Position numbers and translations under genes: made by a program
Origin: Coriobacteriia bacterium
GTDB lineage: Bacteria; Actinomycetota; Coriobacteriia; Anaerosomatales; JAAXUF01
Direction: 5' to 3'
Assembly: GCA_013336165.1 (NCBI GenBank)
Contig: JAAXUF010000018.1
Location: 1-32,397, forward strand
DNA length: 32,397 nucleotides
In this document: in pieces, positions 1,433 to 32,397 of the stretch
How the letters are laid out: each line of letters opens with the position of its first letter
Numbering within the stretch: position 1 is the stretch's first letter
Notes under the pieces: generated by a model
Seen by the model: the letters and a program-made list of their open reading frames with translations, nothing else
What the model was told of the DNA's origin: nothing
Database searches by the model: none

Positions 1433-1511
1433 CAAGCGAATCGAGCAGAACGCCAGGAGCTACACTGACAAGAAAGCGGATGCGCGTCTGCTCATTCGCC
1501 AGACGTTAGAT
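1427..1511 (+). repeat. attC site 3 (85 bp)
   Basis: R'' is GCCTAAC and R' is GTTAGAT. The arms are of the 'agcgaatCgagc / gctcattcgc' class. Confidence 0.93.
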
Positions 1512-1528
1512 GCAGGAAGGGGAGGGCT

Positions 1529-2275
1529 ATGTCTGGACTAGAGGGTGTTACGTTGGCTGGAGATCCTGTGTTTCGTCACGCGCCGGAGACAAGCGTTTCG
1601 GGGCCAGCTTCATACAACGACGCGTATGCGGAAGCCGTCGTGAAACACATGTCGGCTGCTCTCGGGGAACCGAATGACATCATCTGGCACGAGGTGGTTT
1701 CGGACATGGTGCACATAGATGTGCACTTTATCGATCCGAAGACGGGCCCAAGTCGGCACGTGCTGTTCACAACTGGTATGAGCCATCGCCCGATGAACGT
1801 CCCGCCCGGTCATGATATCCCCGCGCTCACTGAGGTCATGATGGTCTTGCCGGGGGACTGGCCGCTGGATGAAGAATCACTTAGATCTGACCGCTATGGT
1901 TGGCCGCTGGGTCTGCTCGAGTCTCTTGCGCGTTTGCCGCATCAGTACGACACATGGCTGGGGGTGGGACACACCATTCCCAATGGTGAACCGGCTGTGC
2001 CCTACGTGGCAGGCACTGGGTTGTGCTGCGCGCTACTGCTTCCTCCAATCCAGGCGTTGCCTGATTCGAAGTGGAGCGTTCCGACTGACGATGGGCAGAG
2101 TATCTCCCTACTCTGTGTCTACCTGATTCATGAGGCGGAGATGGTTCTCAAGATGGAGAAGGGCACCGATGCATTGCTCGATCCCTTTGACGCTGCGCAT
2201 GTACTGGACATCGTGGATCTCAATCGGAAGAGCTCAGTGCAACCGCCTCGCAAGAAGAGGTTCGGTCTCTTCTGA
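1529..2275 (+). CDS. SUFU-domain protein (copy A)
   Basis: This 248-aa protein starts at ATG 1529 with a strong AGGAAGGGGAGGG ribosome binding site. It spans a full suppressor-of-fused-like domain: VHIDVHFIDP at about 61-70, LFTTGMSHRPMNVP at 79-92, and EVMMVLPGDWPL at 102-113, which is the family signature of a strand, a T-x-GMS-x-x-PM loop and an LP-x-x-W turn. A C-terminal HEAEMVLKMEKGTDALLD segment completes the fold. In bacteria this family is common among immunity proteins of polymorphic toxin systems, but no toxin is adjacent. A paralogue 92% identical (20 differences in 248 residues, counted by eye) lies at 9816-10562, in a cassette with a different attC class. Confidence 0.9.
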   Translation: MSGLEGVTLAGDPVFRHAPETSVSGPASYNDAYAEAVVKHMSAALGEPNDIIWHEVVSDMVHIDVHFIDPKTGPSRHVLFTTGMSHRPMNVPPGHDIPALTEVMMVLPGDWPLDEESLRSDRYGWPLGLLESLARLPHQYDTWLGVGHTIPNGEPAVPYVAGTGLCCALLLPPIQALPDSKWSVPTDDGQSISLLCVYLIHEAEMVLKMEKGTDALLDPFDAAHVLDIVDLNRKSSVQPPRKKRFGLF

Positions 2276-2295
2276 TGACGGGTCCGCGCGGCCGC

Positions 2296-2379
2296 ATCTA
2301 ACAAACGTTTCGAGCAGACGGCGAAAGCGCTACTCTTTCGAAAGCGGCACGTCCGCTGCTCAAACGTCAGACGTTAGGT
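2296..2379 (+). repeat. attC site 4 (84 bp)
   Basis: R'' is ATCTAAC and R' is GTTAGGT. The central stem is of the 'cagacggcgaaagcgctactctttcg' class (named by its first bases), not the 'ctgactcgcag' class found after the paralogous gene at 9816. Confidence 0.93.
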
Positions 2380-3101: not shown

Positions 3102-3308
3102 ATGACGACTGTCACCATCTCGCCCAAGTTCCAGGTTGTGATTCCCAAGGTGATCCGCGAGAGCCTCGGGCTGCGCGCGGGCCAGCAGGTCCAGGCTATT
3201 GAATACGATGACCGGGTCGAACTGGTGCCTCTGCGTTCCGCCCGTGAGATGCGCGGCTTTCTGCGCGGGATCGCGACGGATGTGCCGCGTGAGGACGATC
3301 GGCTGTGA
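3102..3308 (+). CDS. AbrB/SpoVT-type antitoxin (VapB-like)
   Basis: Two adjacent ATGs at 3099 and 3102 follow a GAGGAG ribosome binding site; 3102 has the better six-base spacing and gives 68 aa. The N-terminal SPKFQVVIPKVIRESLGLRAGQQV segment is the swapped-hairpin AbrB DNA-binding fold of MazE/VapB antitoxins. The C-terminal tail (MRGFLRGIATDVPREDD) is the expected toxin-neutralising part. The stop overlaps the start of the PIN toxin by three bases, so translation is coupled. Confidence 0.92.
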   Translation: MTTVTISPKFQVVIPKVIRESLGLRAGQQVQAIEYDDRVELVPLRSAREMRGFLRGIATDVPREDDRL

Positions 3309-3685
3309 ACGTCGTCGATTCTTCGGGCTGGCTTGAGTATTTCGCGGGCAGCGCGGAAGCGGACTTCTTCGCCGGCGCCATCGAGGCGACTGAGGAACTT
3401 GTTGTTCCGACAGTGAGCGTCTACGAAGTGTTCAAGCGTGTGTATCAACAGCGGGGTGAAGGCGAAGCTCTGCAGGTTGCCGCGCTCATGCAGCAGGGGA
3501 CGATCGTTGAATTGAATGCAGCGCTTGCGCTTTCCGCCGCGCGCTTGAGTGCCTCGCTCGGCATCCCGATGGCGGACAGCATCATCCTTGCGACGGCACG
3601 CGCTCACGATGCCACGCTCTGGACGCAGGATGCGCATTTCGCGGGCATCGACGGGGTGATGTTCTCGGCGAAGAGGTCGGACTAA
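3305..3685 (+). CDS. PIN-domain ribonuclease toxin (VapC-like)
   Basis: This 126-aa protein starts at a GTG that overlaps the antitoxin stop (GTGA). The PIN catalytic acids are present: D5 (NVVDSSGWLE), E41 (VYEVFK), D91 (MADSIIL) and D109 (TQDAHF). VapC toxins are Mg-dependent RNases that cut tRNA or rRNA and are held inactive by the cognate VapB. The stop codon lies in the R'' box of attC 6. The pair forms a complete toxin-antitoxin cassette, a type known to stabilise large integron arrays against deletion. Confidence 0.93.
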   Translation: MNVVDSSGWLEYFAGSAEADFFAGAIEATEELVVPTVSVYEVFKRVYQQRGEGEALQVAALMQQGTIVELNAALALSAARLSASLGIPMADSIILATARAHDATLWTQDAHFAGIDGVMFSAKRSD

Positions 3686-4713: not shown

Positions 4714-4738
4714 GTGCTTGCCACAAGCGCGTTCAGGG

Positions 4739-4767
4739 TTGACACATGCGACAAGCGTGTACACAAT
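4739..4767 (+). promoter_or_regulatory. Promoter of the Phd/PIN toxin-antitoxin cassette
   Basis: A perfect TTGACA at 4739-4744 is followed after 17 bp by CACAAT at 4762-4767. The palindrome GTGTACAC at 4757-4764 overlaps the -10 and is a plausible operator for the Phd-type antitoxin. Confidence 0.7.
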
Positions 4768-4791
4768 AGTGTCACGATTGGAGGCGCGATC

Positions 4792-5079
4792 ATGAAGTTT
4801 GTCAGTGTACGTGACCTGCGAGGCAAGTCGGCTGAAGTATGGAAGAACCTGCCCGGCGAGCGCGAGATGGTCATCACCAGCAATGGTCGACCGGTCGCCA
4901 TCCTTGCGGCGGTCAACGAGTCCAACCTTGAGGAGTCCCTCTCGGCATTCCGCCAGGCCCGCGCTGTCGATGCGGTCGCATCTTTGCAGCGCAAGTCGGC
5001 GACTCGGGGAACGGACAAGCTGTCGGCAGAGGAGATCGAGGCGGAGATCGCTGCCGTTCGTCAGAGCCGCGTCAAATGA
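4792..5079 (+). CDS. Phd/YefM-type antitoxin
   Basis: ATG 4792 has a GGAGG ribosome binding site seven bases upstream, giving 95 aa. Residues 1-40 (KFVSVRDLRGKSAEVW, then REMVITSNGRPVAIL) are the classic Phd/YefM DNA-binding N-terminus. The C-terminal part (EEIEAEIAAVRQSR) is a helical toxin-binding tail. It overlaps the toxin gene by ATGA at 5076-5079, so the two are translationally coupled. It probably represses its own promoter. Confidence 0.93.
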   Translation: MKFVSVRDLRGKSAEVWKNLPGEREMVITSNGRPVAILAAVNESNLEESLSAFRQARAVDAVASLQRKSATRGTDKLSAEEIEAEIAAVRQSRVK

Positions 5080-8251: not shown

Positions 8252-8337
8252 GTCTAACCAACGTTTCGAGCAGACTCGCAGATAGCCGTCTCGCTCTGAA
8301 AGCGTTACGCTCGCAGCTCAAACGTCAGACGTTAGGC
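8252..8337 (+). repeat. attC site 12 (86 bp)
   Basis: R'' is GTCTAAC and R' is GTTAGGC. The stem is of the 'gcagactcgcagatagccg' class. Confidence 0.93.
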
Positions 8338-8354
8338 AGAAGTGGGGTAGTCGG

Positions 8355-9053
8355 TTGGACATCGGGGACGAACAGCGCCAAGGACTCGGGACGGCGTTGA
8401 ACGAGTCAACTTTGCTCGGATTCGAGGTCTTGCCGGAACAGCGACTGGCGGCTGCAACCTTCTCTGTGCTTGCCCTGACGAATCACGGCGACCCCCCTGC
8501 TGACCCGCGTGTACAAATCATCTTCTCTCCTGTTGGGCGGGTTGTCGCCTCGTTGAGGGATGGCAGCTGGGACGATTGCCGTGCGCCAGCCAGACGATTC
8601 GAACTCAATGAACTCCTTGAGGTCGTGAAGGGGTTTGGAGGGCTACCCATCTATGGCTGGGAGTTCATCGATACAGACGACGCTTCGCTAGCAAGTATGG
8701 CGGGGCGTTACAGTCTCGATTGGACCTCGGGCGAGACGGGGGGTCTGTCTCACTCAATTTCGGTCTTCCAAGACGAAGCAGACCGGTATCTTGATCTGGT
8801 GGTTTGGTTCGATGATCTACTGGTCTTCACGTCTGACGGCACTCAGGTACCGCTCGATGACTTCATCGCAGGTGGTGAGCGCTGGTGGGATGCGATGTAC
8901 GCCGGTGATTCACGAACCAAGAGCGCCGGCATTTTCCCCATGCCAAAGGGGCGGAACAAGCGGACGGTACTGCGTCGTCTACTGTCTCGCGTGCGACGCT
9001 CTCTCCGCGACTCTCCGCCGGAGCAGTCAGATGGCGGGGACTCCTCTGCCTAA
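8355..9053 (+). CDS. Hypothetical protein of the duplicated cassette (copy A)
   Basis: A TTG at 8355 with GGGG seven bases upstream gives 232 aa; no ATG fits. The protein is acidic, with no membrane segment. Recognisable stretches are VQIIFSPVGRVVASLRDGSWDD (about 53-74), a W-rich middle and a basic tail (RRLLSRVRRSLRD). I recognise no family. The whole cassette, gene plus attC, recurs base for base at 17360-18155. The stop TAA lies in the attC. Confidence 0.85.
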   Translation: MDIGDEQRQGLGTALNESTLLGFEVLPEQRLAAATFSVLALTNHGDPPADPRVQIIFSPVGRVVASLRDGSWDDCRAPARRFELNELLEVVKGFGGLPIYGWEFIDTDDASLASMAGRYSLDWTSGETGGLSHSISVFQDEADRYLDLVVWFDDLLVFTSDGTQVPLDDFIAGGERWWDAMYAGDSRTKSAGIFPMPKGRNKRTVLRRLLSRVRRSLRDSPPEQSDGGDSSA

Positions 9054-9133
9054 CAAACGTTTCGAGCTGACTCGCAGATAGTCGTTTCGCTCTGAAAACG
9101 TTACGCTCGCAGCTCAAACGTCAGACGTTCGAC
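9048..9133 (+). repeat. attC site 13 (86 bp)
   Basis: R'' is GCCTAAC and R' is GTTCGAC. The stem is of the 'gctgactcgcagatagtcg' class with the private change 'gaaaacgtt', shared only with attC 25, the copy. Confidence 0.93.
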
Positions 9134-9761: not shown

Positions 9762-9799
9762 CAGCGTGAGCCTCGCTGCTCATTTGCTGGACGTTAGAT
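9714..9799 (+). repeat. attC site 14 (86 bp)
   Basis: R'' is GTCGAAC and R' is GTTAGAT. The arms 'aagcaaatCgagc / gctcatttgct' form a private L-box pair. The HEPN gene terminates inside. Confidence 0.9.
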
Positions 9800-9815
9800 G
9801 CAGGAAGGGGAGGTT

Positions 9816-10562
9816 ATGTCTGAACTAGAGGGTGTTACGTTGGCTGGAGATCCGGTGTTCCGTCACACGCCGGAGGCAAGCGTTTCTGGGCCGGCTTCAT
9901 ACAACGACGCGTATGCGGAAGCTGTCGTGAAACACATGTCGGCTGCTCTCGGGGAACCGAATGACCTTATCTGGCACGAAGTGGTTTCGGACATGGTGCA
10001 CATCGATGTCCACTTTATCGATCCGAAGACGGGTCCCAGTCGGCACGTGCTGTTCACAACCGGCATGAGCCATCGCCCGATGAACGTTCCGCCTGGTCAT
10101 GATATCCCCACGCTCGCTGAGGTCATGATTGTCTTGCCGGGTGATTGGCCGCTGGATGAAGAATCACTCAGATCCGAGCGCTATGGTTGGCCCATTACTC
10201 TACTCAAGACTCTTGCGCGCCTACCGCATCGGTACGATACATGGCTGGCCGTAGGACATACGATTCCCAATAATGAGCCGCCGGAGCCCTACGTGGCCGG
10301 TACCGGGTTGTGTTGTGCGTTGCTGCTTCCTCCAATCCAAGCGTTGCCTGATTCGAAGTGGAGCATTCCGACTGACGATGGGCAGAGTATCTCCCTACTC
10401 TGTGTCTACCTGATTCATGAGGCGGAGATGGTTCTCAAAATGGAGAAGGGCGTCGATGCTTTACTCGATCCCTTTGATGCTGCGCATGTACTGGACATCG
10501 TGGACCTCAATCGGAAGAGCTCAGTGGAACCGCCTCGCAAGAAGAGGTTCGGTCTCTTCTGA
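9816..10562 (+). CDS. SUFU-domain protein (copy B)
   Basis: ATG 9816 follows AGGAAGGGGAGG exactly as in copy A; an upstream in-frame ATG at 9798 overlaps the attC R' box and is unlikely. The protein is 248 aa and 92% identical to the one at 1529. The substitutions concentrate in residues 98-160, around EVMIVLPGDWPL and YGWPITLLKTLARLPHRYDTW. That clustering is what one might see in an immunity-type protein adapting to a partner, but this is inference. All SUFU motifs are intact. Its attC belongs to a different stem class from copy A's. Confidence 0.9.
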   Translation: MSELEGVTLAGDPVFRHTPEASVSGPASYNDAYAEAVVKHMSAALGEPNDLIWHEVVSDMVHIDVHFIDPKTGPSRHVLFTTGMSHRPMNVPPGHDIPTLAEVMIVLPGDWPLDEESLRSERYGWPITLLKTLARLPHRYDTWLAVGHTIPNNEPPEPYVAGTGLCCALLLPPIQALPDSKWSIPTDDGQSISLLCVYLIHEAEMVLKMEKGVDALLDPFDAAHVLDIVDLNRKSSVEPPRKKRFGLF

Positions 10563-10582
10563 TGACGGGTCAGCGCGGCCGC

Positions 10583-10668
10583 ATCTAACAAACGTTTCGA
10601 GCTGACTCGCCAATAGTCGTTTCGTTCTGAAAGCGCTACGCTCGCAGCTCAAACGTCAGACGTTCGAC
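10583..10668 (+). repeat. attC site 15 (86 bp)
   Basis: R'' is ATCTAAC and R' is GTTCGAC. The stem is of the 'gctgactcgccaatagtcg' class, whereas the paralogous gene at 1529 is followed by the 'cagacggcg' class. Confidence 0.93.
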
Positions 10669-10688
10669 ATAACCTACCGCCGTCGCCG

Positions 10689-11273
10689 CTAGGCGTTCTC
10701 GATGTTCTGCGCTGTCGCTGGGGATTTCGCCGCAAGCTTCACTAAGGCTCTTGCTACACGCTGCGCTCCGCTTTTGCTGACCAGATTGGCATCATCCAAT
10801 GCTTCCCGGAGGGATCCGGCAACTTGAGCGGTCTCATCAGCCAATGACTTCGGCCGTCCAACGGCGAACACCTGCTTTGCGGCGACCGAATAGACGGCCA
10901 GCTCGTCTGGTTGCCCAGCGATTCGTGCGGGGTCTTCGGCTCTAATGACGGACAGGATGCCTTGTTCATCCCACAAGAGTCCTTCGAAGGTAGCTCCTCC
11001 GGGTGCACGGTATACGTCTGGTCTGAATAGCCTGAAGAAGGCAAGCTGTCCAAGGAGCGCCAAGATCATCGCGATGGCTGCGACGAGCATCGCGAGCGTG
11101 GAATAGCGTTGTATGGCTCCGACGCCAAGCCACAAGACAATCAGGCTTAACGCGGTTGTCACAAGTGCGGATTTCTGGTTGAGGGCATCGCGTGCCTTTA
11201 GAAGGAGGATGGCCACAACTTCGAATATGATCACTGCCATGAGTAGGATCTGGCTGGCAACATCCGGTGACAT
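10689..11273 (-). CDS. Three-TM membrane protein, the only reverse-oriented cassette gene
   Basis: The minus strand carries a long frame; an ATG at 11273 preceded by GGGGGAA gives 194 aa, and another at 11321 would add 16 residues but lacks a ribosome binding site. Hydrophobic segments at about 6-26, 36-54 and 59-80 are followed by a cytoplasmic-looking domain with GLLWDEQGILSVIRAEDP, ending in a helical tail (LREALDDANLVSKSG ...). No family is recognised. It faces against array transcription, so it must have its own promoter or be silent. I see no convincing promoter. Confidence 0.75.
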   Translation of the reverse strand: MSPDVASQILLMAVIIFEVVAILLLKARDALNQKSALVTTALSLIVLWLGVGAIQRYSTLAMLVAAIAMILALLGQLAFFRLFRPDVYRAPGGATFEGLLWDEQGILSVIRAEDPARIAGQPDELAVYSVAAKQVFAVGRPKSLADETAQVAGSLREALDDANLVSKSGAQRVARALVKLAAKSPATAQNIENA

Positions 11274-11344
11274 GCGTTCCCCCGTTTCGCTGTGCGCAGT
11301 CTCGCGTGGTGTTTCCTCCATCCAATGTTATCGTGATCGGGTAT

Positions 11345-11428
11345 GTCGAACAAACGTTTCGAGCAGACGGCGAAAGCGCTACTCTTTCGAAAGCGGCACG
11401 TCCGCTGCTCAAACGTCAGACGTTCGAC
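11345..11428 (+). repeat. attC site 16 (84 bp)
   Basis: R'' is GTCGAAC and R' is GTTCGAC. The stem is of the 'cagacggcgaaagcgc' class. The site keeps the normal orientation although the gene of this cassette is reversed. Confidence 0.93.
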
Positions 11429-14718: not shown

Positions 14719-14802
14719 AGCTAACAAGCGTTTCGAGCAGGCGGCGAAAGCGCTACTCTTTCGAAAGCGGCGGGGCCGCTGCTCAAACGCCAGACGTTCG
14801 AT
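14719..14802 (+). repeat. attC site 21 (84 bp)
   Basis: R'' is AGCTAAC (one mismatch) and R' is GTTCGAT. The stem is of the 'gcaggcggcgaaagcgc' class. Confidence 0.92.
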
Positions 14803-14824
14803 GGAACGATGAAGGGGAGACATC

Positions 14825-15265
14825 GTGACACTCGTATACACGCTTCTGTTCGTCGCGGCTCTCGTCGGAATTGTCGTCCGTCTGCATCAAGGATTCTTGG
14901 CTGTTCGGCTCCGGGCAGCTGCGAAAGCCGGTTGCGCTGCTTCAATTCTGACGCGTCCGGCAGACATTCTGCGGCTAGGGGCGGTAGCCGCAGTCGTTTC
15001 TACGGTGCTTTCGGCCGTTTCAGCGATGATTGCGCCGGGTTCCGGTGTCATCGAACTGGGTCTCGGCCTCTTTGCTGGCGTGTTCGTGGCCGGCATCTAC
15101 TGGCGTTATCCTGCCGCGGCACCCATCGCAATTACCTCACCCGATTGGGAGACTGGCGAGGTCGGCGGCTACGGGATCATGCGTATCGCGCGCTATCTTT
15201 ATGCGAGCATTGCCACCGCTGGGGCGATTGGAGCTGCCGTCGCTCTGGTTTCGCGTATGTGGTGA
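14825..15265 (+). CDS. Small four-TM membrane protein
   Basis: GTG 14825 follows GAAGGGGAGA and gives 146 aa. Hydrophobic segments lie at about 2-20, 50-70, 75-93 and 122-142, with a conserved-looking loop TSPDWETGEVGGYGIMR before the last. No family is recognised. It is the only gene in its cassette. Confidence 0.82.
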   Translation: MTLVYTLLFVAALVGIVVRLHQGFLAVRLRAAAKAGCAASILTRPADILRLGAVAAVVSTVLSAVSAMIAPGSGVIELGLGLFAGVFVAGIYWRYPAAAPIAITSPDWETGEVGGYGIMRIARYLYASIATAGAIGAAVALVSRMW

Positions 15266-15314
15266 GTCTTCCATGGATGAGGTGAATCGCGGCGTTTCGG
15301 ACTCAACGCGTCTC

Positions 15315-15400
15315 ATCGAACAAACGTTTCGAGCAGACTCGCAGATAGCCGTCTCGCTCTGAAAGCGCTACGCTCGCTGCTCAAACGTCAGACGTTAGAT
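15315..15400 (+). repeat. attC site 22 (86 bp)
   Basis: R'' is ATCGAAC and R' is GTTAGAT. The stem is of the 'gcagactcgcagatagccg' class, like attC 12. Confidence 0.93.
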
Positions 15401-17281: not shown

Positions 17282-17365
17282 GGCTAACAAACGTTTCGAG
17301 CGGACAGCGAAAGCGCTACTCTTTCGAGAGTGATACGGCTGCCGCTCAAACGTCAGACGTTAGGC
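17282..17365 (+). repeat. attC site 24 (84 bp)
   Basis: R'' is GGCTAAC (one mismatch) and R' is GTTAGGC. The stem is of the 'gcggacagcgaaagcgc' class. Confidence 0.92.
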
Positions 17366-17382
17366 AGAAGTGGGGTAGTCGG

Positions 17383-18081
17383 TTGGACATCGGGGACGAA
17401 CAGCGCCAAGGACTCGGGACGGCGTTGAACGAGTCAACTTTGCTCGGATTCGAGGTCTTGCCGGAACAGCGACTGGCGGCTGCAACCTTCTCTGTGCTTG
17501 CCCTGACGAATCACGGCGACCCCCCTGCTGACCCGCGTGTACAAATCATCTTCTCTCCTGTTGGGCGGGTTGTCGCCTCGTTGAGGGATGGCAGCTGGGA
17601 CGATTGCCGTGCGCCAGCCAGACGATTCGAACTCAATGAACTCCTTGAGGTCGTGAAGGGGTTTGGAGGGCTACCCATCTATGGCTGGGAGTTCATCGAT
17701 ACAGACGACGCTTCGCTAGCAAGTATGGCGGGGCGTTACAGTCTCGATTGGACCTCGGGCGAGACGGGGGGTCTGTCTCACTCAATTTCGGTCTTCCAAG
17801 ACGAAGCAGACCGGTATCTTGATCTGGTGGTTTGGTTCGATGATCTACTGGTCTTCACGTCTGACGGCACTCAGGTACCGCTCGATGACTTCATCGCAGG
17901 TGGTGAGCGCTGGTGGGATGCGATGTACGCCGGTGATTCACGAACCAAGAGCGCCGGCATTTTCCCCATGCCAAAGGGGCGGAACAAGCGGACGGTACTG
18001 CGTCGTCTACTGTCTCGCGTGCGACGCTCTCTCCGCGACTCTCCGCCGGAGCAGTCAGATGGCGGGGACTCCTCTGCCTAA
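17383..18081 (+). CDS. Hypothetical protein of the duplicated cassette (copy B)
   Basis: This is identical in sequence to the gene at 8355-9053, with the same TTG start and the same 232 aa. The frame is also open upstream through attC 24, but the copy boundary and the GGGG ribosome binding site support the TTG at 17383. Absence of any visible substitution implies a very recent copy. Confidence 0.85.
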   Translation: MDIGDEQRQGLGTALNESTLLGFEVLPEQRLAAATFSVLALTNHGDPPADPRVQIIFSPVGRVVASLRDGSWDDCRAPARRFELNELLEVVKGFGGLPIYGWEFIDTDDASLASMAGRYSLDWTSGETGGLSHSISVFQDEADRYLDLVVWFDDLLVFTSDGTQVPLDDFIAGGERWWDAMYAGDSRTKSAGIFPMPKGRNKRTVLRRLLSRVRRSLRDSPPEQSDGGDSSA

Positions 18082-18161
18082 CAAACGTTTCGAGCTGACT
18101 CGCAGATAGTCGTTTCGCTCTGAAAACGTTACGCTCGCAGCTCAAACGTCAGACGTTAGAC
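18076..18161 (+). repeat. attC site 25 (86 bp)
   Basis: R'' is GCCTAAC and R' is GTTAGAC. It is identical to attC 13 up to the GTT, after which the two diverge, because the last R' bases belong to the next cassette. Confidence 0.93.
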
Positions 18162-18772: not shown

Positions 18773-18856
18773 GTCTAACACACGTTTCGAGCGGACAGCG
18801 AAAGCGGTACGCTTCAGCAAGCAATACGCCTGCCGCTCAAACGTCAGACGTTAGAA
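18773..18856 (+). repeat. attC site 26 (84 bp)
   Basis: R'' is GTCTAAC and R' is GTTAGAA (last position mismatched). The stem is of the 'gcggacagcgaaagcgg' class. Confidence 0.92.
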
Positions 18857-18886
18857 CGAGACCCATAAATCGTCTGAGGTTGTTAC

Positions 18887-18915
18887 GCGTGAATAACGTT
18901 TGACGTTATTCACGC
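18887..18915 (+). promoter_or_regulatory. Perfect 12-bp inverted repeat, candidate HigA operator
   Basis: GCGTGAATAACG and CGTTATTCACGC flank a five-base spacer TTTGA. It overlaps the -35 of the promoter of the HigBA cassette, so a bound HigA dimer would block transcription. Confidence 0.8.
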
Positions 18916-18928
18916 ACAGCGTTATTAT
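18900..18928 (+). promoter_or_regulatory. HigBA cassette promoter
   Basis: TTGACG at 18900-18905 and TATTAT at 18923-18928 are separated by 17 bp. The expected transcription start, 6-8 bases on, falls at about 18935, right at the HigB ATG, suggesting a leaderless mRNA. Confidence 0.75.
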
Positions 18929-18935
18929 TCTTGCC

Positions 18936-19214
18936 ATGATCATCTCGTTCCGTGACACCGACACAGCAGCTCTCGCAGGTGGCATGCGCGTCAAGCGCTT
19001 CGTCGCCTTTGAGTCCGTCGCGCGTCGCAAACTGCGGCAACTCGAGATCGCTGGTCAGCTTGACGACTTGAGGGTGCCGCCGGGCAATCGGCTCGAGGCG
19101 CTCAAGGGTGATCGCGCTGGTCAACACAGTATTCGGATTAACGATCAGTATCGTGTTTGCTTTCGCTGGACTGCCGCTGGACCCGAAGACGTTGAGATTG
19201 TGGACTACCACTAG
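18936..19214 (+). CDS. higB: HigB-type mRNA interferase toxin
   Basis: ATG 18936 gives 92 aa; the longer frame from 18900 starts inside the operator and is rejected. The sequence MIISFRDTDTAALAGG, VARRKLRQLEIAG, DDLRVPPGNRLEALKGDR and QHSIRINDQYRVCFRW with the final VEIVDYH is the full RelE-superfamily HigB/GraT pattern. HigB cleaves mRNA on the ribosome and is neutralised by HigA. There is no ribosome binding site, in line with a leaderless transcript. The toxin-first gene order is typical of HigBA. Confidence 0.95.
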   Translation: MIISFRDTDTAALAGGMRVKRFVAFESVARRKLRQLEIAGQLDDLRVPPGNRLEALKGDRAGQHSIRINDQYRVCFRWTAAGPEDVEIVDYH

Positions 19215-19223
19215 AAGGTGATG

Positions 19224-19529
19224 ATGATGACAACCGCACTTGCACCCGTAACGCCAGGCGAGCTTTTGCTTGAGGAGTTCCTGCTTCCTATGGGCATCTC
19301 GAAGTATCGTCTCGCCAAGGAGATCGGGGTACCGGCGCAGCGCATCGGTGAGATCGTGGCCGGTAGGCGCGCGATCACGGCTGATACTGACCTGCGTCTG
19401 TCCCGCTTCTTCGGATTGTCGGAGGGTTACTGGCTGCGTGCCCAGGTCGCCTACGACACGGAAGTTGCTCACGAGCGACTGGCGGGGGAACTCGACAAGA
19501 TTCGGCCATGGTCGGGAACCGCGGCCTGA
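19224..19529 (+). CDS. higA: HigA-type antitoxin, XRE helix-turn-helix
   Basis: GAAGG precedes a run of starts (GTG 19218, ATG 19221, 19224, 19227); ATG 19224 has the best spacing and gives about 101 aa. PGELLLEEFLLPMGISKYRLAKEIGVPAQRIGEIVAGRRAIT is the HigA/VapI-type XRE domain, with the helix-turn-helix at about residues 24-45. LRLSRFFGLSEGYWLRAQVAYD is the usual follow-on helix pair. It should bind HigB and repress from the palindrome at 18887-18915. It follows the HigB stop by about ten bases. Confidence 0.94.
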   Translation: MMTTALAPVTPGELLLEEFLLPMGISKYRLAKEIGVPAQRIGEIVAGRRAITADTDLRLSRFFGLSEGYWLRAQVAYDTEVAHERLAGELDKIRPWSGTAA

Positions 19530-19540
19530 ATCGGGGTCCG

Positions 19541-19626
19541 TTCTAACACGTGTTTCGAGCTGACTCGCAGATAGTCTTCGCATTGTGAAAGCGCTACGCT
19601 CGCAGCTCAAACACCGGACGTTAGCA
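19541..19626 (+). repeat. attC site 27 (86 bp)
   Basis: R'' is TTCTAAC and R' is GTTAGCA. The arms are 'acgtgtttCgagc / gctcaaacacc', like attC 8, which also ends a toxin-antitoxin cassette. Confidence 0.91.
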
Positions 19627-21824: not shown

Positions 21825-22733
21825 GTGTTTCAGATGCCGAACGCGGTGACAATTTCGGCCCGGTCCTCCTCCCTGACCAACTCATTCGTGAACTCGATCA
21901 TTCCGGTCTTTCACCCTTCCCAGGAGGAGATTGAAGAGGCGCTCGCGGTCTTGGGCATGACGCTGGACCACACCGAGTGTGTCTACTGCGGGAACGCTAC
22001 GACAGAATGGGACCATCTCCGGCCCCTTGTGAAGAACAAGCGTCCGACGGGATACGTTTCGGAGATCGCCAACCTTGTTCCGGCATGCGGCAAGTGCAAC
22101 CAGTCCAAAGGCGGATCGGACTGGCGGACCTGGATGGTTGGACCAGCCAAGCTCTCGCCTCACACCCGTGGGGTCGCAGATCTCGAAAGCAGGATTGCGA
22201 GTCTCGAGCGATATGAGGAATGGCGCACGCCACTTAGGGTAGACTTCGAACAGCTGGCGGGCGGCACTCTGTGGACCAAGCATTGGGACAACCATTATCG
22301 ATTGATGGACCTGGTCTCGGAGTGTCAGGTCACGGCGGACGAGATCAAGCAGCTCGTTCGTCAAGTCCATGATCAGCGTTCGCCGCGATCTTCTGCACGC
22401 GGCGCGGTGCGTCCGCGATCCCGTACAGACCGCCAGCCACGGCAGGCGGCCCAAGCAGATGTGGAGCGGCTGCTGAGGAGTGTCGGCTACGCCGCATTCG
22501 TCGAGTACTACGCTGTATTCGCGGACTTGTCACTTTCAACCGAGCACGCGATCGAGCGTCTGCCCCAGCGCTACAGCGAGGGCGGACGGCGAACACGCGT
22601 GAACTGCGCACGTCGCATCATCAATGGAGGAATGGCCCGGGAAGCGCTTTCGGCCATCGCGGCTTCTGAGGCTGTGGACCCCGCCACCGTTCGGCAGGCT
22701 GAGCAGCTACTGCGTGAACTGGGGTCGTCCTAA
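21825..22733 (+). CDS. HNH endonuclease
   Basis: GTG 21825 has AGGAGG six bases upstream, giving 302 aa. The HNH core is complete: C52-x-x-C55, then EWDHLRPL with D63-H64, N83 in EIANLVPAC, C88-x-x-C91-N92. The four cysteines make the structural zinc site typical of this subfamily. The C-terminal half is an Arg-rich linker followed by a helical region (VERLLRSVGYAAFVEYY, about 210-300) that could bind DNA or a partner. No DNA methylase is adjacent. It may be a stand-alone defence nuclease. Confidence 0.9.
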   Translation: MFQMPNAVTISARSSSLTNSFVNSIIPVFHPSQEEIEEALAVLGMTLDHTECVYCGNATTEWDHLRPLVKNKRPTGYVSEIANLVPACGKCNQSKGGSDWRTWMVGPAKLSPHTRGVADLESRIASLERYEEWRTPLRVDFEQLAGGTLWTKHWDNHYRLMDLVSECQVTADEIKQLVRQVHDQRSPRSSARGAVRPRSRTDRQPRQAAQADVERLLRSVGYAAFVEYYAVFADLSLSTEHAIERLPQRYSEGGRRTRVNCARRIINGGMAREALSAIAASEAVDPATVRQAEQLLRELGSS

Positions 22734-22813
22734 CAAACGTTTCGAGCTGACTCGCCGATAGTCGTCGCACTCTGAAAGCGCTACGCTCGCAGCTCAAACG
22801 TCAGACGTTAGGC
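22728..22813 (+). repeat. attC site 31 (86 bp)
   Basis: R'' is TCCTAAC and R' is GTTAGGC. The stem is of the 'gctgactcgccgatagtcg' class. Confidence 0.92.
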
Positions 22814-22831
22814 CGATATGAAGGGGGATTC

Positions 22832-23311
22832 ATGGCTATCACGCTCGACGATCTCACAGTTAGCTTCGCGCACATCGATCGCGATGGTCTGCTTGCGGAC
22901 TGGGTCTGGCTCATCGGGACGAGCCGTTTGCCTATTCTAGTCACTGCCGCAGGTGATGCATTCCTGCAGGATGCGGACGATGGCTCGGTTCTGTTCCTCG
23001 ACACCCAGGCCGCTGAGTTGAGCACCGTGGCGGACTCCCCGGAAGAGCTGCGTTCGCTTCTGGCAGATCGACAGTTCGTCTACGACTATCTGTTTGTCGA
23101 GATGTGTGCTGACCTTGCTGCTAGGGGTCGAACCTTGGGGCCGGGACAGGTCTACGACTTGGAGCAGCCCATGGTCCTAGGCGGCAATTGTGTTCCAGAC
23201 AACATCAGGTCGCTTGATATGGCCGTGCATTTTTCGCTGCTCGGGCAGATCCATGAGCGGGCACGCAATCTGCCGGAAGGAACGTCCATTGCCGGTGTCG
23301 GTATCGAGTAG
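22832..23311 (+). CDS. Tdi1/DUF1851-type immunity protein (copy A)
   Basis: ATG 22832 follows AAGGGGGA and gives 159 aa. The pattern AAGDAFLQDADDGSVLFLD, then LGPGQVYDLEQPMVLGGN and VHFSLLGQIHERA is that of the DUF1851 / T6SS-immunity Tdi1 C-terminal family, in which the first characterised member protects against a type VI secreted NAD-targeting effector. No effector is nearby. A 97% identical paralogue (5 differences, counted by eye) lies at 28165, including the 18-base leader. Confidence 0.88.
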   Translation: MAITLDDLTVSFAHIDRDGLLADWVWLIGTSRLPILVTAAGDAFLQDADDGSVLFLDTQAAELSTVADSPEELRSLLADRQFVYDYLFVEMCADLAARGRTLGPGQVYDLEQPMVLGGNCVPDNIRSLDMAVHFSLLGQIHERARNLPEGTSIAGVGIE

Positions 23312-23316
23312 CTACG

Positions 23317-23400
23317 GCCTAACAAACGTTTCGAGCGGACAGCGAAAGCGCTACTCTTTCGAGAGCGACACGCCTGCCGCTCAAACGTCAGACGTTAGGC
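23317..23400 (+). repeat. attC site 32 (84 bp)
   Basis: R'' is GCCTAAC and R' is GTTAGGC. The stem is of the 'gcggacagcgaaagcgc' class, unlike the attC after the paralogous gene (attC 39). Confidence 0.93.
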
Positions 23401-24758: not shown

Positions 24759-25220
24759 ATGAGTGATCTGTTCGCTGAACTCAAGCCTGACATCGAGGCG
24801 TTGGCAAATCCTTTGTTCGAGGCGTCGGAGATGTTCGTGCGCAAGCGCGGTCAGTTCCTGCCCCATGGGGCTGTTCTTGAGACTGACGGCAGTGTTCGTC
24901 TTGTCATGGCTGCTCCGGATGACCTCGACGCGAAAGTATCGTCAATCGAGATTCTGCCACGCCTGCATGAGGCACTTCGCCGCGAGGCAGAAGAACATGC
25001 GCTCAAAGCAGTGGCCGTGTGTGAGGACGTGACGATCACGCCGGCGGGACACAGGCAGACGCGAGCCGTCAAAGTTCTCGTCGAACATGCTCGTGGGCTT
25101 ACGGTTGCCCTCTATCTGCCGTATCAGCGAAAGCTGCTCGGCAGCTGTAGTTTCGGCGATATCTTGCTGATGGTTGCGGAGCCCGAAGTGCGTCCGTGGG
25201 CCGTGGAGAGATCCGCCTAA
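24759..25220 (+). CDS. Hypothetical protein, second gene of a two-gene cassette
   Basis: ATG 24759 follows AAGGGGGA and gives 153 aa. GQFLPHGAVLETDGSVRLV at about 31-49 and a long helix (ILPRLHEALRREAEEHALKAVAV) lead to VEHARGLTVALYLPYQR. The family looks like small soluble bacterial proteins I cannot name. The stop lies in attC 34. A GTTAAAT matching the R' consensus lies upstream at 24727-24733, which might mark a lost cassette junction. Confidence 0.8.
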   Translation: MSDLFAELKPDIEALANPLFEASEMFVRKRGQFLPHGAVLETDGSVRLVMAAPDDLDAKVSSIEILPRLHEALRREAEEHALKAVAVCEDVTITPAGHRQTRAVKVLVEHARGLTVALYLPYQRKLLGSCSFGDILLMVAEPEVRPWAVERSA

Positions 25221-25298
25221 CAAACGTTTCGAGCAGGCGGCGAAAGCGCTACTCTTTCGAGAGTGATACGTCCGCTGCTCAAACGTCAGACGTTAGGC
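25215..25298 (+). repeat. attC site 34 (84 bp)
   Basis: R'' is GCCTAAC and R' is GTTAGGC. The stem is of the 'gcaggcggcgaaagcgc' class. Confidence 0.93.
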
Positions 25299-25315
25299 AT
25301 ACGAAAGGAGAGTCT

Positions 25316-26173
25316 GTGAGGGTCTTCCTAAGCTGGTCGGGTTCACGGAGTCGTTTTCTCGCAGATGCTTTGCGAACATGGCTACCCCGGGTGATGCAGT
25401 CACTTCGTCCTTGGATGTCTGACGAGGACATTGCGAGCGGCGCTCGCTGGTTGCCTGAAGTATCGTCGGAGCTTGGGCAGGCCAAGGTTGGCATATTGCT
25501 GGTAACGCCGGAGAACCAGTCAAACCCTTGGCTTGTTTTCGAAGCAGGTGCCCTTTCGAAGACGATTGAACAGACATTTGTTTGCCCACTGCTATTCGAT
25601 ATGACTCCAGTTCAACTGGGCGGTCCTTTGGCTCAGTTTCAAGCGGTAACTCTTGACCGTGCGGGAGTCCTGAAAGTCCTTCAGAACCTGAATCGAGCAC
25701 TAGACGCTGATAGGATATCTGAAGTCGATCTGGGGGAGATCTTCGACGTATGGTGGCCTCACTTGGAGGCGCAATTGCTAAAGATTCCCAGTCTCGATGA
25801 ACCGGTCGCGGCGCCGCGCACGACCGAAGAACTACTAGAAGAAATCTTGGCGCTCAACCGCGAGCAACTTCGACGCGAGAACGTGCGGCTGGAGCACTCC
25901 CAAATCCGTGACGAGTACATTGATCAGTTCATACCTGTTATGGAACAAATGGCGGGGACTGTGAGGGTCATGCAAGAACGTGGAGAGATGATGGCCAGGG
26001 ATCTGCCGTCAGCACTGCACCCGTACATCAATTCAGATGTGCCTGTGGCCAGCATGGATCAGATGACGAAGTTGGTGCGCGATTCGTCAAAGATGAATCG
26101 ACAAGCATTACAGCAACTGCTGTCGATGCCTTCAGAATCAGAAGACGCTTTGCAGCCTGAGACAGATGCCTAA
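25316..26173 (+). CDS. TIR-domain protein, candidate anti-phage effector
   Basis: GTG 25316 has AAAGGAG five bases upstream, giving 285 aa; the frame is open further upstream through attC 34 but without a start. Residues 1-120 form a TIR domain: RVFLSWSGSRSRFLADALRTWL, DEDIASGARWLPEVSSELGQAKVGILLVTPEN and NPWLVFEAGALSK. E77 is at the position of the catalytic glutamate of NAD-hydrolysing TIRs. Residues 195-285 are helical and probably coiled-coil (EELLEEILALNREQLRREN), suggesting oligomerisation. No Thoeris ThsA or other partner gene is in the cassette. Confidence 0.9.
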   Translation: MRVFLSWSGSRSRFLADALRTWLPRVMQSLRPWMSDEDIASGARWLPEVSSELGQAKVGILLVTPENQSNPWLVFEAGALSKTIEQTFVCPLLFDMTPVQLGGPLAQFQAVTLDRAGVLKVLQNLNRALDADRISEVDLGEIFDVWWPHLEAQLLKIPSLDEPVAAPRTTEELLEEILALNREQLRRENVRLEHSQIRDEYIDQFIPVMEQMAGTVRVMQERGEMMARDLPSALHPYINSDVPVASMDQMTKLVRDSSKMNRQALQQLLSMPSESEDALQPETDA

Positions 26174-26881: not shown

Positions 26882-26965
26882 GCCCAACAAACGTTTCGAG
26901 CAGACGGCGAAAGCGCTACTCTTTCGAAAGCGGCACGTCCGCTGCTCAAACGTCAGACGTTCTAC
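26882..26965 (+). repeat. attC site 36 (84 bp)
   Basis: R'' is GCCCAAC and R' is GTTCTAC. The stem is of the 'cagacggcgaaagcgc' class. Confidence 0.93.
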
Positions 26966-26988
26966 ACATACACGGCACTCGCTCGCAC

Positions 26989-27234
26989 ATGATACGGCTC
27001 TTCAAAGAAGCAAACGGCAGGGAACCGGCTGAAACGCGGCGCACCATTGCATTCAACCTAGATGCAATGAGGGAAGTGCCCACCGTGCTTCGTGCCTTGG
27101 AGGGGCGATATCCGTCGATATCACCCCTCCAGAAGTGTAGAACAAGCGAATCGAGCAGAACGCCAGGAGTTAGACTGACAAGCAAGCGAATGCGCGTCTG
27201 CTCATTCGCTGGACGTTCGATGGAACAGGAGTGA
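26989..27234 (+). CDS. ORF of hairpin cassette (copy B), runs through attC into the next cassette
   Basis: ATG 26989 opens an 81-codon frame (MIRLFKEANGREPAETRRT ...). It passes through the hairpin because CGA replaces the TGA of copy A, crosses attC 37 and stops in the next cassette's leader. No ribosome binding site precedes it. Only about the first 50 residues are cassette-specific. It may be a fragment of a larger gene or a spurious frame over a structural element. Confidence 0.35.
   Translation: MIRLFKEANGREPAETRRTIAFNLDAMREVPTVLRALEGRYPSISPLQKCRTSESSRTPGVRLTSKRMRVCSFAGRSMEQE
27099..27130 (+). repeat. Inverted repeat with 4-nt loop (hairpin, copy B)
   Basis: GGAGGGGCGATATC pairs with GATATCACCCCTCC around CGTC, with one C-A mismatch at 27106. 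It is the counterpart of the perfect hairpin at 6755-6786. Confidence 0.8.
27137..27221 (+). repeat. attC site 37 (85 bp)
   Basis: R'' is GTAGAAC (two mismatches, as in attC 10) and R' is GTTCGAT. The arms are of the 'agcgaatCgagc / gctcattcgct' class. Confidence 0.88.
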
Positions 27235-28094: not shown

Positions 28095-28146
28095 TCGTCG
28101 CTCTCGGAAAGCGTTACGCTCGCAGCTCAAACGTCAGACGTTAGGC
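28061..28146 (+). repeat. attC site 38 (86 bp)
   Basis: R'' is ATCGAAC and R' is GTTAGGC. The stem is of the 'gctgactcgcagatagtcg' class. Confidence 0.93.
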
Positions 28147-28164
28147 CGATATGAAGGGGGATTC

Positions 28165-28644
28165 ATGGCTATCACGCTCGACGATCTCACAGTAAGCTTC
28201 GCGCACATTGATCGCGACGGCCTGCTCGCGGACTGGGTCTGGCTCATCGGGACGAGTCGTTTGCCTATTCTTGTCACTGCCGCAGGTGATGCGTTCCTGC
28301 AGGATGTGGACGATGGCTCGGTTCTGTTCCTTGATACCCAGGCCGCTGAGTTGAGCACCGTGGCTGACTCTCCGGAAGAGCTGCGTTCGCTTCTGGCAGA
28401 TCGGCAGTTTGTCTACGACTATCTGTTTGTCGAGATGTGTGCTGATCTTGCTGCCAAGGGTCGAACCTTGGGACCGGGACAGGTTTACGACTTGGAGCAG
28501 CCCATGGTCCTAGGCGGAAATTGTGTTCCGGACAACATCCGGTCGCTCGATATGGCCGTGCATTTCTCGCTGCTCGGGCAGATCCATGAGCGGACGCACA
28601 ATCTGCCGGAGGGAACGTCCGTTGCCGGTGTCGGTATCGAGTAG
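28165..28644 (+). CDS. Tdi1/DUF1851-type immunity protein (copy B)
   Basis: ATG 28165 has the same AAGGGGGA leader as copy A. The 159-aa product differs from the one at 22832 at five positions, including A to V in the DVDDG turn, R to K in AAKGR and A-R to T-H near the C-terminus. Many third-position changes separate the genes, so they are older copies under constraint and not a fresh duplication. All DUF1851/Tdi1 motifs are kept. The attC that follows is of another class. Confidence 0.88.
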   Translation: MAITLDDLTVSFAHIDRDGLLADWVWLIGTSRLPILVTAAGDAFLQDVDDGSVLFLDTQAAELSTVADSPEELRSLLADRQFVYDYLFVEMCADLAAKGRTLGPGQVYDLEQPMVLGGNCVPDNIRSLDMAVHFSLLGQIHERTHNLPEGTSVAGVGIE

Positions 28645-28649
28645 CTACG

Positions 28650-28735
28650 GCCTAACAAACGTTTCGAGCTGACTCGCAGATAGTCTTCGCTCTCTGAAAG
28701 CGCTACGCTCGCAGCTCAAACGTCAGACGTTAGGC
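28650..28735 (+). repeat. attC site 39 (86 bp)
   Basis: R'' is GCCTAAC and R' is GTTAGGC. The stem is of the 'gctgactcgcagatagtc' class; the sequence matches attC 32 through the R'' and L'' boxes and then departs. Confidence 0.93.
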
Positions 28736-32197: not shown

Positions 32198-32280
32198 GTC
32201 TAACAAAGGCATCGAGCGGGCGGCGAAAGCGGTACGCTAATGACAACGCATGACCGCCGCTCATGCCTCAGACGTTAGCT
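32198..32280 (+). repeat. attC site 45 (83 bp)
   Basis: R'' is GTCTAAC and R' is GTTAGCT. The arms are of the 'aggcatCgagc / gctcatgcct' class. Confidence 0.93.
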
Positions 32281-32373
32281 ACAGCAGTACAACGGCGCTG
32301 AAGAACTCGATGCATTTGAGGCTCGCGCTCCGCGCTCAAACACGAATGAATTGCTATGCAAGGGGGGATTGTA

Positions 32374-32397
32374 TTGGCTGATTGCTTTGAGCCTGTC
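32374..32397 (+). CDS. Start of next cassette gene (3' truncated by window edge)
   Basis: A TTG at 32374 sits five bases after an AGGGGGGA ribosome binding site, and its frame (MADCFEPV) is open to the window end. Too little is visible to name it. The leader is 93 bp, longer than usual, and contains the 18-base GGCTCGCGCTCCGCGCTC also found at about 14498. Confidence 0.45.

Follow-up and report, generated by a model that had tools for sequence, protein, structure and literature searches.

The window, by which we mean the whole 32,397-nucleotide stretch of DNA analysed, is the complete contig C18 of a 1.99-Mb Coriobacteriia genome (28 contigs, 99.5% complete) and forms part of an integron cassette array, the rest of which lies on contigs C22, C23, and C9. 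At least 57 well-formed attC sites are present in C18, C22, and C23, and the cassettes each end in a related attC. An intact-looking integron integrase of 319 aa is encoded at C22:4693-5634, scoring 482.8 bits against TIGR02249 (curated cut-off 265). The 3' end of the integrase gene, intI, is followed by an attI-like junction near position 4477 of C22 ('cattG|TTGGGCGGGC', recognized by sequence only and matching the first attC's arm) and then by the first cassettes, which means that intI is oriented toward the array. The intI contig C22 measures 7.3 kb, and contig C9, which holds another part of the array, 66 kb; in relatives, intI lies on long contigs. The attC sites decay toward the distal end of the array, in C9. 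Outside the window, the genome was covered by sequence searches and by the array contigs and contig ends.

The cargo includes toxin-antitoxin cassettes (MazE-like/PIN, Phd-like/PIN, and HigBA), SUFU cassettes, Tdi1-like immunity cassettes, an HNH protein, and a TIR protein. The TIR protein, carried in a cassette (window positions 25196-26173), matches PADLOC TIR-TM at 2e-64 and the HNH protein (21825-22733) has weak PtuB-like matches; these two proteins are possible anti-phage cargo. The cassette at 10663-11422 has its longest ORF (10689-11321) on the minus strand, opposite to the array direction. Rfam with its gathering thresholds returned nothing for the window, and a 16S search in the genome gave no match, several controls being equally silent. 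The features on which the analysis turns are collected in Table 1.

Table 1. Cassettes, attC sites, and reading frames discussed in the text, in window coordinates.
Feature	Position	Strand	Remarks
Cassette copy 1	8332..9127	+	TTAGGCAG ... attC ... GACG; identical to copy 2; arms complementary
ORF in copy 1, 232 aa, TTG start	8355..9053	+	Other genomes of the phylum have distant homologues (25-41% identity)
attC of copy 1	9050..9127	+	R' arm now from the next cassette (GTTCGAC)
attC before copy 1	8254..8331	+	Unlike the attC before copy 2 beyond the last 16 nt
Cassette copy 2	17360..18155	+	Exact identity with copy 1
ORF in copy 2, 232 aa	17383..18081	+	Identical, from identity of the copies
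attC of copy 2	18078..18155	+	Bottom strand predicted to fold as a canonical attC hairpin
attC before copy 2	17284..17359	+	From sequence comparison
SUFU-domain cassette	1506..2373	+	Body 91% identical to 9794-10662, attC type different
SUFU-domain cassette, second copy	9794..10662	+	Body 91% identical to 1506-2373
T6SS Tdi1-like immunity cassette	22808..23394	+	Body 94% identical to 28141-28729, attC type different
T6SS Tdi1-like immunity cassette, second copy	28141..28729	+	Body 94% identical to 22808-23394
HigBA toxin-antitoxin cassette	18851..19620	+	Two more copies in C22 and C23, 91-96%
256-bp cassette without its own ORF of at least 60 aa	6616..6871	+	Relatives at 26960-27215 and in C22, 92-95%
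256-bp cassette, second copy	26960..27215	+	Same family, 92-95%
Cassette	14797..15394	+	Body 87% identical to C23:2015-2610, attC type different
Second exactly duplicated cassette, first 123 bp	32275..32397	+	Also in C22; contig ends here

The original prediction was that one cassette, gene plus attC, had been duplicated base for base 9 kb apart, and sequence comparison within the window bears this out: the two copies align over 796/796 bp with 0 mismatches. The maximal exact match is slightly longer, 814 bp (8316-9129 against 17344-18157), and lies far beyond chance. On the left, the duplicated cassette's surplus consists of 16 nt ending CAAACGTCAGACG, a 3' end that many of the array's attC sites have in common, and on the right of 2 bp, the obligatory TT. 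The left surplus carries little information because 476 of 1596 attC pairs (~30% of all pairs of the 57 well-formed sites) share at least 16 nt there. With the surplus accounted for by the attC 3' end and the TT, the identical unit is exactly one cassette, running from TT... to ...G, and both of its ends fall at the integrase cleavage point G|TT, where the breakpoints had been placed. Identity on the right ends after the GTT, as had been noted, the flanks beyond the TT diverging into TTCGACCG and TTAGACAC, and the attC stems upstream of the two copies are unlike (CGCAG vs TGCCG). Identity reaching well past the attC boundaries, which the original prediction had named as evidence against itself, is absent. 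The unit being a cassette with attC arms, an ordinary IS or phage repeat was rejected.

In an excised circle, the 5' arm of a cassette's attC pairs with the first bases of that cassette. This complementarity is exact over the first 7 bases in 51 of 54 complete cassettes and in 110 of 2862 (3.8%) pairings of different cassettes made as a control, which shows that the cassette limits are real. In the duplicated cassette, TTAGGCAG is complementary to CTGCCTAA. The bottom strand of the copy 2 attC is predicted to fold into the expected imperfect hairpin; the copy 1 attC, folded alone without constraints, gives a non-canonical structure, its R' now being supplied by the next cassette (TTCGAC). The 232-aa cassette protein belongs to no Pfam, NCBIfam, or PADLOC family, and a single-sequence structure prediction (mean pLDDT 33) was uninformative.

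We assign a probability of about 0.76 to the reading that the integrase recently copied and pasted the cassette within a large, probably chromosomal integron. Four features behind this reading are seen directly: exact cassette boundaries, identity of the copies, a genome that also encodes IntI, and no co-duplicated flanks. IntI would recombine folded bottom strands, joining the cassette's attC with the preceding attC and releasing a cassette circle. Only the bottom strand would leave, and replication of the top strand would keep the donor array intact, a semi-conservative outcome. Its attC would then let the circle enter the same array at a different G|TT, which could be that of an attC or that of attI; in the latter case, later insertions would have buried the cassette. 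We infer the replication step and the donor/recipient direction, as well as the presence of both copies in one chromosome. Integrase-mediated excision and reinsertion had been proposed originally, and the integrase boundaries, the encoded IntI, and the lack of carried flanking homology all speak for the enzyme; simple excision and reinsertion, however, only moves a cassette, so two copies require either semi-conservative copy-and-paste or two independent captures. Since duplication needs the semi-conservative outcome, we favour the earlier explanation with that refinement: its observation was exact and its interpretation sound in substance. Its dating of the event as recent, drawn from the lack of substitutions, is reasonable, but homogenising gene conversion could also produce identity.

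Two captures of the same cassette from an external pool, such as another cell's array or a plasmid, would use the same enzyme and sites with a different source, and the boundaries would be identical; the other families of this array with copies at 87-96% identity could likewise be separate captures. We nevertheless consider double capture quite unlikely. Apart from attC repeats, no further copy of the cassette was found in the rest of the genome, in 60 relatives, or in a plasmid collection, and a protein-level search found no copy of the cassette protein in viral contigs, leaving no outside carrier among the sources searched. Zero substitutions are most simply obtained from a local donor, and the attC of the cassette belongs to a type native to this array, in which another attC matches it at 97% identity.

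The exact pair is not the only duplication in the array. An all-cassette comparison found five further families at 87-96% body identity, making six cassette families including the exact pair, plus a second exact duplicate cut by the contig end; in all of these the duplicated unit is a single cassette, starting at its first base. The second exact duplicate, at 32275 and in C22, is matched over 123 bp or more, beginning on the left 4 nt ahead of the TT. In 10/10 further homologous pairs, identity begins at the first cassette base, and the attC sites preceding the members of these pairs resemble random attC pairs, with shared runs of 4-26 nt. Co-duplicated neighbours were found in none of the homologous cassette pairs of the array. 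A start at the first base combined with unrelated neighbours is what single-cassette mobility predicts, unlike block duplication, and segmental duplication was rejected for want of shared neighbours. No exact whole-cassette duplicates occur in array stretches from eight relatives, most of these stretches being short. The third copy of the 256-bp cassette lies on the C22 reverse strand at 4738-4993; this cassette could be a regulatory or promoter cassette.

The attC sites of this array do not always travel with their genes. In the SUFU, Tdi1-like, and 14797 families, cassette bodies reach 87-94% identity, but their attCs belong to different types with just 79-81% identity, and the attC of each copy is 97-100% identical to that of an unrelated cassette. 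The swapped attCs in the window lie at 2298-2373, 10585-10662, 23319-23394, 28652-28729, and 15319-15394. A clean hybrid follows intI as its first attC (C22 reverse strand 3297-3370), with its left 47 nt equal to type B and its right 33 nt to type A. By their sequences, attC sites appear partly decoupled from their genes, with recombination or conversion inside attC as the likely cause of the swaps and the hybrid. Gene conversion among attC sites was suggested in 2006 for Vibrio (PMC1382264), and individual candidate exchange events can be pointed to here in an actinobacterial array.

These same observations lend something to the idea that RecA-type homologous recombination or gene conversion between attC repeats made the exact duplicate, its integrase-like boundaries merely reflecting the likeness of attC ends. 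The repeats are ~78 bp long and up to 100% identical, and recombination inside them seems to occur, as seen in the C22 hybrid, in identical attCs on unrelated cassettes, and in the swapped types. A single crossover, however, would duplicate the 9-kb block, and no neighbours were co-duplicated. Both breakpoints are moreover confined to the 16 + 2 nt containing G|TT, that is, to the last 16-18 nt of an ~80-nt attC, which by a rough estimate would happen by chance in ~5% of cases if breakpoints were uniform. We regard this origin as highly improbable.

A third alternative is that the duplication exists only in the assembly, through an artefact or a strain mixture in which each chromosome has one copy, at differing positions, and both contexts were threaded into one contig. 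Many contig ends share exactly 127 bp, and the assembly is therefore a short-read de Bruijn assembly with k = 127. The 814-bp repeat exceeds this k, so the linkage of the copies may rest on graph topology instead of spanning reads, and other repeats of the array did break contigs (C18/C22 and C23/C9). Given an assembly of this kind, we infer that one molecule carries the two copies. A single 127-mer can cover any one of the four junctions, which makes it very likely that both contexts exist in the sampled population. Two copies on one contig would form a simple loop in the assembly graph, which would have one path through all edges and could be traversed without spanning pairs. A strain mixture would itself imply integrase-mediated cassette movement as its simplest cause. 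We hold an artefact or mixture to be improbable and retain copy-and-paste within one array as the preferred reading.

Copy-and-paste duplication of this kind has been demonstrated experimentally for IntI1 in class 1 integrons (PMC8024014), and as there, the whole cassette with its attC is duplicated, probably by the integrase, and the original array is kept. In the class 1 case, duplication occurred under antibiotic selection and mostly at the first position of a plasmid integron (PMC8024014), whereas here it lies inside a large and probably chromosomal array. Such duplication has been reported as common in large chromosomal integrons. The array also resembles Vibrio superintegrons (PMC1382264) in its many duplicated or paralogous cassettes, its toxin-antitoxin cassettes, its array-specific attC family, and the suggested attC gene conversion; unlike those, it has an actinobacterial host, an intI directed toward attI and the array, and several attC types mixed in one array. 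An intI in cassette orientation, toward the array, is shared with Treponema-type integrons (PMC3607928), from which the present case differs in phylum and in the presence of the integrase in many genomes of one actinobacterial order. The duplication itself is thus an ordinary, known kind of event in a little-described host group. As a natural trace of a cassette being copied and pasted it is clean, and it suggests that an actinobacterial integron, probably chromosomal, is active now or was recently. The graded older copies (~96, 94, 91, and 87% identity) could let the array serve as a clock for duplication and attC exchange.

More consequential than the duplication is how widely integrons occur among these Actinomycetota. 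Coriobacteriaceae bacterium EMTCatB1 (Actinomycetota) and the window's genome belong to one order: a relative of the window's genome from that order matches EMTCatB1 at 100% over 6001 bp. Among the window's genome and 60 relatives of the order, an integron integrase was found at E < 1e-60 in 43 of 61 genomes, representing 31 of 40 genera. For the majority of the relatives fetched, the contig stops a short way 3' of intI, the pattern that assembly breaks in repetitive arrays on that side would give. An analysis from 2008 described Actinobacteria as notably absent among integron carriers (PMC2426708), and our full-text literature search, whose coverage is incomplete, found no paper on coriobacterial integrons. 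We give even odds to a broader reading of this array. On this reading, crossover or conversion within attC lets the sites recombine with each other regardless of which genes they accompany, and cassettes would both be copied and trade their recombination sites; an inverted-orientation integron, undescribed in the literature searched, would moreover be present in much of the order.

Mobile elements other than cassettes have probably entered the array as well. An IS30-like terminus (family assigned by eye) adjoins attC twice, at C23 1-127 together with C9 1-127 and at the C23 end, with identical 127 bp, and IS insertions inside the array are likely. Two attC sites ~2.1 kb apart also occur at C6:44439-46720, away from the main array on a large contig without other array pieces.
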